Positions 21,475 to 58,939 of a DNA stretch of 64,000 nt are shown here, piece after piece. Within the stretch, counting starts at the first letter, position 1. Each line of letters starts with the position of its first letter. The position numbers and the translations under genes were made by a program. A model generated the notes under the pieces. It worked only from the letters and a program-made list of their open reading frames with translations. It was not told the origin of the DNA and made no database searches. Origin of the DNA: Golubevia sp. BC0850 (taxonomy: Eukaryota > Basidiomycota > Exobasidiomycetes > Golubeviales > Golubeviaceae). Where the stretch lies: contig JAAVVG010000001.1 of assembly GCA_012976225.1 (NCBI GenBank), positions 1,984,001 through 2,048,000 on the forward strand, read 5' to 3'.

Positions 21475-23861
21475 TCATTCCTCTTCTTCCTCATCCCCAC
21501 CTTCTTCCCTCCAGAATTGATAAACATTCCTTCTCCTAGCTTCATTAGCTTCCTTCCTACTTGCCATACTGAACAGCTCCTTCAGCAACTCCTTTCTGAA
21601 AGTTTTCAATAATTGCGATCTACTTCCTTCACCACTGGTCAGAGCCAAAAAGATTTCCTTATGATCACTAATCTTCTCCAATAAGTTGCTAACTTTCTCA
21701 TCTTTCTGAATCTCATCACCTTGAACTTCAATGATTTCTCCATCTTTTCCCTTTCGTTTCTTCTTCTTTCCCTCAGTTCCCTCCTCACCCGCCTCTTCGA
21801 ATTTCTCAAGACTTTCTAAAATTCCACTACTCTCTGTCCAAAATTCTCCAAAGACGTTCTTCCAGACCCTTTCGAAGGTGATTTTAGCAGCAGTGGTAGT
21901 TGTGAAGTTGATGAAGGGCTGTAAGAGCTCAATCAAAGGAAGTCTAGAAGAAAGGTTTGAAACTTCAGAAGTTGAGGAGCTTGAAGTTGAAGCAGTTAGA
22001 GCCTTTTCTAATTCATCTAGATAAATGTCAGAAACATGATATGTGATTGATGATGGTAGTTGAATGTTATTTGGGCTAAGCAAAGCAAAGGAAGGAGAGA
22101 AGAGAAGAAGGTTAGCATCTCAAAACAGAACAGTCAGGAATTGGAAACTGGGAGAGAAGGGGGGGGGAGGAAATGTTTCCACTGAGCAAATAAGAGAAGT
22201 CCTACCCCATGTAGAGAATCTAACGGGGTCGGTGAGTAAGTGTGGTTGTTTATGAGACGTTGATCTAGCGAACATTTCCGTGTGCGACGACCCAAGGTTT
22301 GAGAATAAGCCTTTGGCCTGCAAAGTTAAATGCGCATTCCTTCGCGTCATTCTATTCGAATTCTCATCTTTCGGTCGGGTAGCATAACATTGACGATAGG
22401 ATGAGAATTCTGTAGAACAGGGGACGGGGAGTGAAGGGAGGGAACTGGAATAGGGAAGCGAGAACAGAAATAGAAAAAACAACTCACCTCAAGACTCCAC
22501 TGATCAAATTATCACCAAACAATTTCACAGCTTCAGAATTCCAATTCTCAGTAGCTAAGAATCTGAAAGAAGCGTTTAGGAATCTACGCATAAGAAGATA
22601 GAATTTGTCCAATCTTGAAAAATGACAATTGGAGACCGAGAAAAGAGAGAAAGAGAGAGAGAGAGTCAGGGTCGGTCAAAAAATCTTCTCCGCCCGATTG
22701 AACCATCACACTTCGAAGGGACAGAAAATAAAGAGGGAAGGCAGAGAAGAAAAGAATGTTTCCACTGAGCAAATAAGAAGTCCTACCCCATGTAGAGAAT
22801 CTAACGGGGTCGGTGAGTAAGTGTGGTTGTTTATGAGACGTTGATCTAGCGAAATCATTTCCGTGTGCAACGACCAAAGGTTTAGGAATAAGCCTTAGGG
22901 CGGCAAAGTTAAATGCGCATTTCAGAGAAGGGGGAGGGGAGGGGAGTTGCTTTTTCTTTCTTTCAATCCTTCCTTTCAACCATTTCCATCATTCCCATAC
23001 CAACCAGTGATCTCATTCGGTCTTTCTTCAGGCTTTACTCACCTGTACTTGTCCAACATGCTCCACTCTCTGATCATAGCCTTCCAAAACCCATTGACAA
23101 ATGCCAAACCGATTTTAGCTCGATTCGAAACGCTGACTTCGGTTGTGGTGCTTGAAACTGAGTGTTCAGGTTCACTTTTCCGCCTCTTAGATGATTTCTT
23201 AGAGGTGGAAGAAGAAGAAGAGGAGGAAGAGGAAGCAACGGTGGAATGAGGGATTGAAAGAATCAACTCTGAAAGTTCTGCTGCTAAGGCTTGTTGGACT
23301 AGAGGTTTGTCTGACATCCAAAAGCCTAGAAATCGAGGAGGAACCGGATAAGAAATCAGCCTTTGCACAGATTTTGGGAGGGAGAGAACAGTACTTCTTG
23401 CCTTCTTCTTGGGTAGAACTTTTTTTTCCTTTGTTGCACCGACCTCCCTGGCATTCCCCTTCTCTACTCGACATCTAAGACCCTTTTTGAGAAGAAAATT
23501 CAAACACTCACAATAGAAAATACCTTTCCATAACTTGTCCATCTCTGATTCATCTAGGAGTGGATGTGATTGTTGAGGATCTTGAGATCCATTGGCTAGG
23601 AAAGCAGCTAAGGACTTGACTGCTTTGTCTCGAATCGGTTTCTCTGTGAGATGAGAGAAGAATTGTTAGTTGAGTAAAGAGTAGAATGAATAGATAACAG
23701 GGAACAGGGAGAGGATTGGATGAAGGTGTAAACTTACCAGTTGAAGCCAAATATTTTCCTAATGGAATTTCAGCATGGACGGGTTGAGGTGCTTTTCCTT
23801 TACCCTTGTTCTTCAGAGTTGATGGGACAGGTCCATGACTAGATTTAACTGTAACAACCAT
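21475..23861 (-). CDS. RRP1: Ribosomal RNA-processing protein 1 (NOP52 family)
   Basis: Nucleolar protein needed for 27S pre-rRNA maturation and 60S assembly. Exons on the minus strand: 23861-23738, 23643-23512, 23325-23043, 22583-22488, 22075-21475; 411 residues. Conserved NOP52 blocks are [40 protein letters not shown] and FVNGFWKAMIREWSMLDKYR joined to FLNASFRFLATENWN. The C-terminal exon has a Lys-rich stretch and ends in a run of glutamates. A serine run and basic KKSSKRRK segment lie in exon 3. The last two introns are unusually long for this window (459 and 412 bp) and each holds a copy of the same structured element (see ncRNA entries). It is head to head with MRPS16 across 123 bp. 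Confidence 0.93.
22173..22338 (-). ncRNA. Candidate intronic H/ACA snoRNA, copy A
   Basis: Lies in the 412-bp last intron of RRP1, sense to the host. It is about 90 percent identical to copy B in the neighbouring intron, and similarity stops at the element edges. Read on the minus strand it can fold as two hairpins. In the first, an outer stem TGCG/CGCA encloses GGCCAAAGG paired with CCTTGGGTC around a 12-nt loop. A hinge carrying AAACAA (fits H box ANANNA) follows. The second has CCAC/GTGG at its base and ACCCC/GGGGT at its tip, followed by AAACAT, where an ACA box would lie. This is the layout of an H/ACA guide RNA. Guide target unknown. Alternative: a short mobile or introner-like repeat. 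Confidence 0.55.
22756..22922 (-). ncRNA. Candidate intronic H/ACA snoRNA, copy B
   Basis: Second copy, in the 459-bp intron before the last 96-bp exon of RRP1, same orientation. Differences from copy A cluster in hairpin 1 and in the single-stranded hinge. One change converts the outer stem partner from CGCA to TGCA, turning a G-C pair into an allowed G-U pair, so pairing survives. Hairpin 2 and the ACA-like end are unchanged apart from a 2-nt indel in its internal loop. Box C (RTGATGA) and box D are not convincingly placed, so a C/D RNA is less likely. Confidence 0.55.
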
Positions 23862-44102: not shown

Positions 44103-44154
<52 letters not shown>

Positions 44155-54169: not shown

Positions 54170-56383
54170 ATGGTAGCCAATAACAACGGAACATCTTCTG
54201 ATTCAGTTGGACCAACAGCAACAGCTGCTTTCAATTCTTTCCCAATAGTTAAACCTCATGATATCATGACTGCTCTAACTCAAGAATTAGACGTTCAAGT
54301 CATTTTGGACGATATCACCAAACCAACTTCTTCTGTAGCTTTCAGATGCTTTCAAGCTTTCTTGAACGCTCTTTCTGGTATTTCGGATGAGGAAATCGAT
54401 AGAACAAAGGTTCAAATTCAGGGTCAGATGCTTTACAAGGTCAGTTGCAGTGCACCACGGTGGTGAGGAGAGGGGGAGAGAGAGAGCAGCGGTGGCGGTA
54501 GGGGTGGATGAAGGGTTGTGAATAATAAGAGGGTGGATCAATTTGATCAGATTGGCTTAACTCGTGTCAACCACAGCTGGGGTTGGAGCCGAGGAGCTGG
54601 TCGGATGAGAGATTGGGTGAGAGGGAGACAGAACAGCAACAACAAGCAGCAGCAGTCATTTGAAGGGAAACATGATGGGATCAGAAGGATCTAACTTTGA
54701 GAATTAATACTGACAATAGATCTCTCATGATCTTAATCGCAACAGGAACTATACGAGGACGCTCTCACCATCAGGTTGAAGTTAGCTGAAATGTAAGTAG
54801 CACCACCCCCTTTCCCCCTCTCTTTTCCGCTCTTCCCTTTCCTTTTTCAAGCGTTCTGATCTCTACTCATCTCTACGATCCACAGAAAGAGCATGATGAA
54901 AGCTTCAATGGTACACGATTTCACTCTACAAGATCTCACAAGACCTGATCCCAAAAGGTTCCGCAAACATCTCTCTGCTCTCATCAACTTCTATAGATTC
55001 AAAGCTGACAGAGTATTGGAAGTGGGAGAGTTCGAAGCTGAAACTGAAGAGTTGACGGATAGGAGAGAGGATTTGTTGAGTCAGAATGATACTGTTTCTG
55101 CTAGAATCGAACATGAGAAGTGAGTGAGATGAGAAAGAGATGCCTTTTGAAGGGGGAGATTTAGATGCTCGAGAAAAGAATGGAGATGGATGAGAAAGGT
55201 TCTCTCTTGAGAGTAGATGGGTACCAAGTGGGAGCTCGAGGGAAGCCCAACTCTCTCCTCGATTTCTTGCTGGTGCCAGCATCGCACCTCTCTTTCGCCC
55301 ATCAATTCGCAATCTACTCGTCTACTCCGAGCTGACAGTATTTGTAACTCTCACTTCCAATTTCTTGTAGAGCGCGTCGACTAAGAGAGGCTCCCGTTAT
55401 GGAGCAACTGAAAGAAGAGAACGAGAAGCTAAGCGCTGGACTGATGGAATTGAAGAATGTTCAGACGAAGCTGATGGAAGAGGTAGAGACAGCCAGAGCT
55501 GAAAAAGCCAGCCTTACGAAGCAGCAGGTGAGTGTCGAGAGAGGATCCAAGCACTGTTGTTTTCATTCCACCCCATCTTTCTGACGCGTCATTTCTCTTT
55601 TCCCTCCTTTCTCTCGATCCTCCTCTTCCAGACGGAGAACATGCAAGATCTAATGAGATTGAACCAGACGCTACAGAAACTACAAGGAAGAGTCCATTCG
55701 TCTCCCAAGAAGTTGAAGACGGATTTAGAGACCAGGACTGGCGAGCTCTCAGCGTTGAGAGCCAATCTTTCCGTCCTTGAAGCCAGGACTAGAGACTTGA
55801 CGAAGAAGTGTGATGTGTTGGAAAGGTTCGAAGAGGTGAGTTCTCCTAGTAGACCGAAGTGGAAGGCAGAAGGGATCTTGACCTCGGGTTCTGTTGGAGC
55901 TGAAATCTTACTCCTTCCGATTCCAGGATCTCAAAATGTGTCAAGCTCTTCTGGAAGGCGTCAAGATCGAAGTAGGAAGAGTCAAAGGAGAGGTTAAAGA
56001 ACACGATGCTCTCTTGGCCCAAATCCAAGAGACAAGGGAAGGATTGTCAGAGCATGAACATCGTCAACAACAGTTCTTGAGCAGGTTAGCCAAGGCAGAG
56101 GAGAGAGTTTCAAAAGTAAGAGACATTCTAGAAAGAAAGAGAACCGATCATAAGAATGAGAAAGAGTTGAAGGAACAAGATTGGAAGACTTGTCAAGAGA
56201 ACGAGAGCGCCTCTAACTCAAAGATTGAGGAGTTGAAGAACCAAGTCAATCATCACAAGAATCAGGTAAGTTTAACCGGTCGATCTTCATATCTTACTCA
56301 TCCGTAAGATGACTGGAGGTTTAGGCGTTTGACAGCGTGGTCACTGCTTCCTTGAGTAACTGAATCTCGGTTCCCTTCCTTCA

Positions 56384-56422
<39 letters not shown>

Positions 56423-56572
56423 TTCTCTAGATCGAAACCACTGAAGAACAATACAAATCTAATCATGTCGTATGGATTCAGACTAGAGATAATCTGGTGG
56501 CAGTAGCAGGTGAGAGTCGGGCCGCTCTGAATTGACATCAAGGTACTTCGTGATCTGAATTCTGACCACTAC

Positions 56573-56619
<47 letters not shown>

Positions 56620-56736
56620 CCCCCGCATATTAACTTCCGCGATGGTCAATTTCCGTATTCGTCAACTTCCGCAGACAAGTACATCAGAGAAATGACACGA
56701 ATGTTGAGCATGGATCCACTGTCTCCAATTCAATAG
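54170..56736 (+). CDS. NUF2: Kinetochore protein NUF2 (NDC80 complex)
   Basis: Subunit of the NDC80 complex that attaches kinetochores to microtubules. Exons: 54170-54439, 54746-54792, 54886-55119, 55371-55527, 55632-55835, 55927-56265, 56431-56509, 56675-56736; 463 residues, the normal length. The N-terminal calponin-homology region has FPIVKPHDIMTALTQELDV and DFTLQDLTRPDPKRFRKHLS followed by ALINFYRFKADR. The remaining 300 residues are coiled coil. The protein ends DKYIREMTRMLSMDPLSPIQ. The first intron is 306 bp; introns 6 and 7 contain (CT)n runs, the one in intron 6 leading directly into the acceptor. Confidence 0.95.
56387..56420 (+). repeat. (TC)n microsatellite before NUF2 exon 7 acceptor
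   Basis: About 17 TC units ending 10 bp before the TAG acceptor at 56430, so the repeat itself forms the polypyrimidine tract of NUF2 intron 6. Confidence 0.9.
56576..56617 (+). repeat. (CT)n microsatellite in NUF2 intron 7
   Basis: About 20 CT units, followed by a C run, in the middle of the 165-bp intron 7 of NUF2. Confidence 0.9.

Positions 56737-58799: not shown

Positions 58800-58802
<3 letters not shown>

Positions 58803-58841
<39 letters not shown>
58803..58841 (+). repeat. (CT)n microsatellite
   Basis: About 19 CT units, just 11 bp after the stop of the Rua1-like gene, so within its 3' UTR. Confidence 0.95.
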
Positions 58842-58845
<4 letters not shown>

Positions 58846-58939
58846 CTTTTCCTCATTTTTTGTACTTCTAGTCCTCAGCTTTTTGCTACCTTTGTCCATT
58901 GTTCATTTCTTTGTTGCGACGTCGAGCAGAAGACCCAAG

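Follow-up and report, generated by a model that had tools for sequence, protein, structure and literature searches.

A duplicated element in two adjacent introns of RRP1 as a candidate pair of box H/ACA snoRNAs

Two near-identical elements of 167 nt were found in adjacent introns of RRP1. Judged from their sequences, and with moderate confidence, these are most likely paralogous box H/ACA snoRNAs of ~168 nt each, encoded within the introns of one and the same host gene. The analysis covered a 64 kb stretch of DNA, referred to below as the window. An H/ACA snoRNA pair had been proposed at this site in a first-pass annotation, and the present results speak for it in some respects and against it in others. 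In its favor are the H/ACA grammar at ends set by the duplication, the type of host gene, the sense orientation, the presence of one element per intron, and the length, while the missing Rfam match, the ordinary stability of the hairpins, the lopsided loop of hairpin 2 and the failure of any rRNA target to exceed chance count against it.

Host gene and duplicated element

RRP1 is a 60S assembly factor, and the predicted protein matched the Pfam family Nop52 (E=2e-49). The gene model comprises exons at 23861-23738, 23643-23524, 23325-23043 and 22562-22488, with the last exon starting at 22075, and its introns (94, 198, 480 and 412 nt) are all of the GT..AG type. The gene is flanked by the end of an actin-family gene, which we infer is probably ARP5, and by a gene for ribosomal protein S16. 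Introns 3 and 4, the two longest of the four, each contain a single unit. Its distance from the 5' splice site is 121 nt in intron 3 and 149 nt in intron 4, and its distance from the 3' splice site is 192 nt and 96 nt, respectively. Exon 4 (22488-22562) sits between the two copies; as it is 75 nt long, skipping it would preserve the reading frame and remove 25 residues.

Table 1. Positions of RRP1, the two copies and their parts in the window
Feature	Position	Strand	Basis
RRP1 host gene (Nop52 family)	21475-23861	minus	five-exon gene model, ORF list, Pfam
Copy A, 167-nt element, RRP1 intron 4	22172-22338	minus	intron-vs-intron local alignment; grammar test
Copy A hairpin 1	22268-22335	minus	fold -15.1 kcal/mol, z -0.46
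Copy A hinge AGATCA...AAACAA	22246-22266	minus	sequence, alignment
Copy A hairpin 2	22179-22245	minus	fold -15.1 kcal/mol, z -1.19
Copy A ACA box	22174-22176	minus	ACA at offset 162
Copy B, 167-nt element, RRP1 intron 3	22755-22921	minus	intron-vs-intron local alignment; grammar test
Copy B hairpin 1 (architecture similar to A)	22849-22918	minus	fold -12.8 kcal/mol, z -0.15
Copy B hinge AGATCA...AAACAA	22827-22847	minus	sequence, alignment
Copy B hairpin 2	22762-22826	minus	fold -15.3 kcal/mol, z -1.23
Copy B ACA box	22757-22759	minus	ACA at offset 162

The unit reads AATGCGC...AAACATT on the minus strand, and both copies are oriented sense to RRP1. They are identical in 158 of 165 ungapped alignment columns and differ further by two 2-nt gaps (~96% identity). 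The best local alignments between their flanks consisted of short pyrimidine runs, with scores reached by 7/300 (5' side) and 15/300 (3' side) shuffles. The first-pass annotation had described a near-identical sense element of ~166 nt in two adjacent RRP1 introns that otherwise differ, and both parts of this description were borne out. What the DNA shows directly is that the unit is duplicated, how far it extends, where and on which strand it lies, and that it has the box grammar described below.

A search of the whole 64 kb revealed no further copy, either among repeats of at least 40 nt or by local alignment, where scores were no better than those of shuffled queries (20 per copy and strand). 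Beyond the window, the element had no match in viral contigs (searched with a 26-base pattern) or in plasmids (distant search with copy B). There is just one window to judge from, which leaves a little room for a chance resemblance or an assembly artefact, but such an explanation is scarcely credible: a 167-nt match of ~96% identity that includes seven substitutions and two gaps is due neither to chance nor to a collapsed duplicate, and the flanks differ.

Hairpins, hinge and boxes

Each copy can be arranged as two hairpins joined by a hinge. The lower stem of hairpin 1 is formed by GCGCATTT and AAATG(2 or 4 nt)CGC, and is followed by a 5+5 internal loop and an imperfect upper stem. The hinge of 21 nt is the same in copies A and B; both the AGATCA at its start and the AAACAA at its end fit the H-box consensus ANANNA, in either copy. 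In hairpin 2 the upper stem is ACCCC/GGGGT, and pairing of CCAC with GTGG, two bases ahead of the ACA, can close the hairpin. The AAACAA box and the GTGG..ACA end were present as the earlier annotation had described them. In both copies two conserved bases remain after the ACA box before the repeat ends, and the box lies 3 nt from the 3' end in H/ACA snoRNAs (PMC2780460). The end of the repeat is that expected of a mature H/ACA RNA, at ACA plus 2–3 nt.

The stability of all four hairpins was ordinary in comparison with shuffled sequences (z -0.15 to -1.23), and the full-length unit, folded without constraint, did not adopt the hairpin-hinge-hairpin form. Hairpin 2 contains an asymmetric internal loop, in which the left side has 9 unpaired bases and the right side 17–19. 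In the minimum-energy fold of this hairpin, CCAC/GTGG is unpaired in copy A, and CACT/AGTG is used in copy B.

Test of the H/ACA grammar

The grammar test called for an ACA near the end with an adjoining 4-bp stem, an H box preceding that stem, a hairpin 1 closed by a 3-bp stem that adjoins the H box on one side and the 5' end on the other, and folding energies below set maxima. At the ends fixed by the duplication, it was passed by only 6/3000 (copy A) and 1/3000 (copy B) dinucleotide shuffles. Copy B passes solely by way of AAACAA, where ATG/CAT forms the closing stem; if bounded by AGATCA, its hairpin 1 (-12.8 kcal/mol) falls short of the -13 threshold. When the ends were left free, 296 of the 7,263 windows with an ACA near the end conformed, forming 80 clusters in the 64 kb, and the grammar alone is unspecific. 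Since it is so common with free ends, and since the thresholds were chosen only once the element had been seen, the weight of the test rests on the grammar coinciding with the limits of the duplication.

The opposite strand of each copy failed the grammar. Another structured small RNA, possibly made from that strand, would agree with its lower folding energies (-40.8 and -42.4 kcal/mol, compared with -33.8 and -31.9 kcal/mol for the full-length sense folds of the two copies). These energies are unremarkable against shuffles (z -0.69 and -0.93), and such an RNA would show neither the H/ACA grammar nor an exact C box and would be antisense to RRP1, making this alternative very doubtful.

Two other classes of snoRNA were considered and rejected. 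For box C/D, no exact C box (RUGAUGA) was present on either strand of either copy, and CTGA, the sequence of the D box, was absent from the sense strand and occurred once on the antisense strand. In U17/snR30, one side of the 3' hairpin loop carries the m1 motif and the other side the m2 motif. An m1-like ATTCCTA was noticed by eye beside AAACC in copy B, but it lies in hairpin 1, where the two sequences adjoin each other, and it is broken in copy A.

The first-pass annotation had suggested an H/ACA covariance or snoRNA search of both copies, and a covariance-model search returned no Rfam match in the window at gathering score. For the region 22050-23050, five matches were obtained with E up to 10, none of them to a snoRNA family.

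If copies A and B are H/ACA snoRNAs, splicing of the RRP1 pre-mRNA would release introns 3 and 4, and the freed introns would be trimmed down to the RNA shielded by the H/ACA proteins Cbf5, Nop10, Nhp2 and Gar1. The resulting particle would then isomerise one or two uridines of rRNA or snRNA by means of the loops of both hairpins. Expression, protein binding, guide activity and a target are thus predictions made for the candidate snoRNAs.

Differences between the copies and their possible origin

All seven substitutions fall within alignment columns 20–53, a stretch of 34 nt that corresponds to the upper stem-loop of hairpin 1; only 46/200,000 random draws were equally tight. Hairpin 2, the hinge and the boxes are free of substitutions, as is the lower stem of hairpin 1. 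The two 2-nt gaps affect a bulge in that lower stem and the right-hand strand of hairpin 2. According to the first-pass annotation, the changes sat mainly in loops, the hinge or one side of hairpin 1. The substitutions are in fact all in the upper part of hairpin 1, and the hinge is identical in the two copies. A stem change from G-C to G-U, also reported there, is absent from the minimum-energy folds, and no compensatory pair change was seen between A and B. The pattern fits a constraint on the lower stems, loops and boxes, but partial gene conversion would give an equal pattern. If the copies are guides, the freely changing upper hairpin 1 and the near-fixed remainder would offer, on a small scale, a natural test of where such an RNA is under constraint.

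An 8-nt direct repeat, CTTCTCTG (minus strand), encloses copy B at 22923-22930 and 22742-22749, one base ahead of the 5' limit of the copy and five bases past its 3' limit. A repeat of this kind was equalled in 19/5000 shuffled flanks, a figure that understates the role of chance because these flanks are rich in pyrimidines and shuffling preserved base composition only. The repeat could be a target-site duplication and, together with a unit that is common to both introns while the flanks are not, would agree with a short mobile or retroposed sequence having been inserted in one intron, either with no RNA function or as a decayed retrocopy of a snoRNA. Movement of snoRNAs within genomes is known (PMC3511168). 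Against this origin, copy A has no bracketing repeat, the sequence lacks an A-tail, a third copy was not seen in the 64 kb, and the flanks of copy B are pyrimidine-rich and of low complexity, so that the repeat is a hint of an insertion of copy B and no more. Overall, this explanation is regarded as unlikely. The copies are also not introners, because the unit does not include splice sites.

The position of the copies in both introns bordering the in-frame exon 4 would also suit a cis-acting RNA element that controls the splicing of this exon, and intronic snoRNAs can affect the splicing of their host (PMC10324135). A splicing element is nevertheless quite unlikely, as the copies differ in their spacing to the splice sites, and it would leave the repeat limits at the ACA unexplained.

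Search for rRNA targets

Under the H/ACA reading, the loops of the two hairpins would be expected to pair with rRNA or snRNA. The rRNA used for the scans was eukaryotic rDNA contained in bacterial records and did not come from the host species. Eukaryotic 18S or rDNA was seen in eight such contigs (L001–L008), and also in plasmids recorded as belonging to Acinetobacter baumannii and Campylobacter hominis; its presence in bacterial genome and plasmid records is probably due to contamination. Contig L006 supplied a complete 18S, whereas its 25S reads N beyond ~370 bases; judging from its spacer, this rDNA is probably Saccharomyces-like. Large-subunit sequences of unidentified eukaryotes were taken from L003, where the gene is apparently whole, and from L002, L007 and L008, where it is partial.

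In the scan with the 3' loop, the best 18S score was reached by 241/300 shuffled guides and the best 28S score (L003) by 62/300. With wider settings, the best 18S score was reached by 134/1000 shuffled guides for the 3' loop and 790/1000 for the 5' loop. Complementarity of the pockets to 18S/25S rRNA, which had been put forward as a check on the guide function, was therefore not substantiated, no target in the 18S of L006 or the large-subunit rRNA of L003 scoring above shuffled guides.

Two uridines were ranked high (yeast numbering of 18S). U759 was 2nd of 501 uridines for the 3' loop, with 4+5 pairs at 15 nt from the ACA, and U766 was 3rd of 501 for the 5' loop, with 3+5 pairs at 18–20 nt from AGATCA. 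The pseudouridylation pocket is usually 14–16 nt from the box, and the distance for U766 falls outside this range. Both positions are among 14 yeast pseudouridines used for comparison, all of which are U in L006. The ranks of U759 and U766 as known sites were equalled by 98 and 93 of 1000 shuffled guides, respectively. These two sites, for the 3' and the 5' loop, may be taken as a weak lead that is suggestive at most.

Other matches were set aside. U558, the top 18S match of the 3' loop (score 25.5), is the one whose score was reached by 134/1000 shuffled guides, and it is not among the 14 yeast pseudouridines. Human pseudouridine 609 (PMC8522698) is two bases beyond U558 by our own count. ATCAACGTCT is complementary to a large-subunit stretch in L002, L007 and L008, and was dropped because the left guide and lower stem that it requires are not conserved between A and B. 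AGGACTTCTTA of copy B is an 11-nt complement to what is probably a stretch of yeast 25S near position 1004. This match was also dropped: it lies 24 nt from the ACA, is shorter in copy A, and is not rare, with ~0.2 such matches expected by a rough estimate.

It is conceivable, though highly improbable, that the copies are a lineage-specific pair with a dual role, guiding pseudouridylation of 18S 759 and 766 and at the same time tuning RRP1 splicing through particle assembly around exon 4. If this were true, the output of guide RNA and that of a 60S assembly factor would be coupled within one transcript.

Relation to known systems

That a ribosome-biogenesis gene can host guide RNAs, as the first-pass annotation had remarked, is a known arrangement: snR191 is an H/ACA RNA in an intron of the fungal ribosome-biogenesis gene NOG2 (PMC8476143). 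The present candidate resembles snR191 in being intronic, of the H/ACA type and within a ribosome-assembly gene. Unlike snR191, the candidate has RRP1 as its host, is present in two copies in adjacent introns, and has neither an Rfam match nor an established target.

An H/ACA snoRNA of Pezizomycotina, number 04, is similar in length (~177 nt on average), in lying consistently within introns, and in its H and ACA boxes; it differs in that the host is a vacuolar sorting protein gene and in having 20 significantly covarying pairs (PMC8216456). Isoforms of snoRNAs are reported to arise through duplication and mobility, giving snoRNA copies at new intronic sites (PMC3511168, PMC2780460). This is comparable to the present case, except that here both copies share one gene. 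In N. crassa, snoRNA genes are reported to be mostly singletons (PMC2780460). The matches listed from the fungal snoRNA and Nop52 literature, in their titles and abstract openings, did not describe snoRNAs in RRP1. If the intron pair is of the H/ACA type, it looks like a fresh example of a well-known arrangement and not a novel type of system.

An Rfam-based survey of Pleurotus ostreatus listed seven snoRNAs, and by its own account was preceded by no such inventory for basidiomycetes (PMC5040776). Guide RNAs of basidiomycetes are thinly catalogued, and the duplicated H/ACA candidate in RRP1, which was missed by Rfam, points to possible sites. The seven snoRNAs of the Pleurotus ostreatus survey reportedly carry mostly C/D-type names.

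Other structures in the window

Upstream of copy A, RRP1 intron 4 contains a separate strong hairpin (22345-22418, minus strand) with a perfect inner stem of 11 bp and additional outer pairs. Its folding energy was -21.3 kcal/mol (z -4.25), with 1/200 shuffles equally stable, making it a more unusual fold than the 167-nt element. The 13-base motif of its arm had a single occurrence in the window when up to one mismatch was allowed. Long TC/GA dinucleotide tracts are located in the window at 44107-44150, 56367-56623 and 58802-58847.
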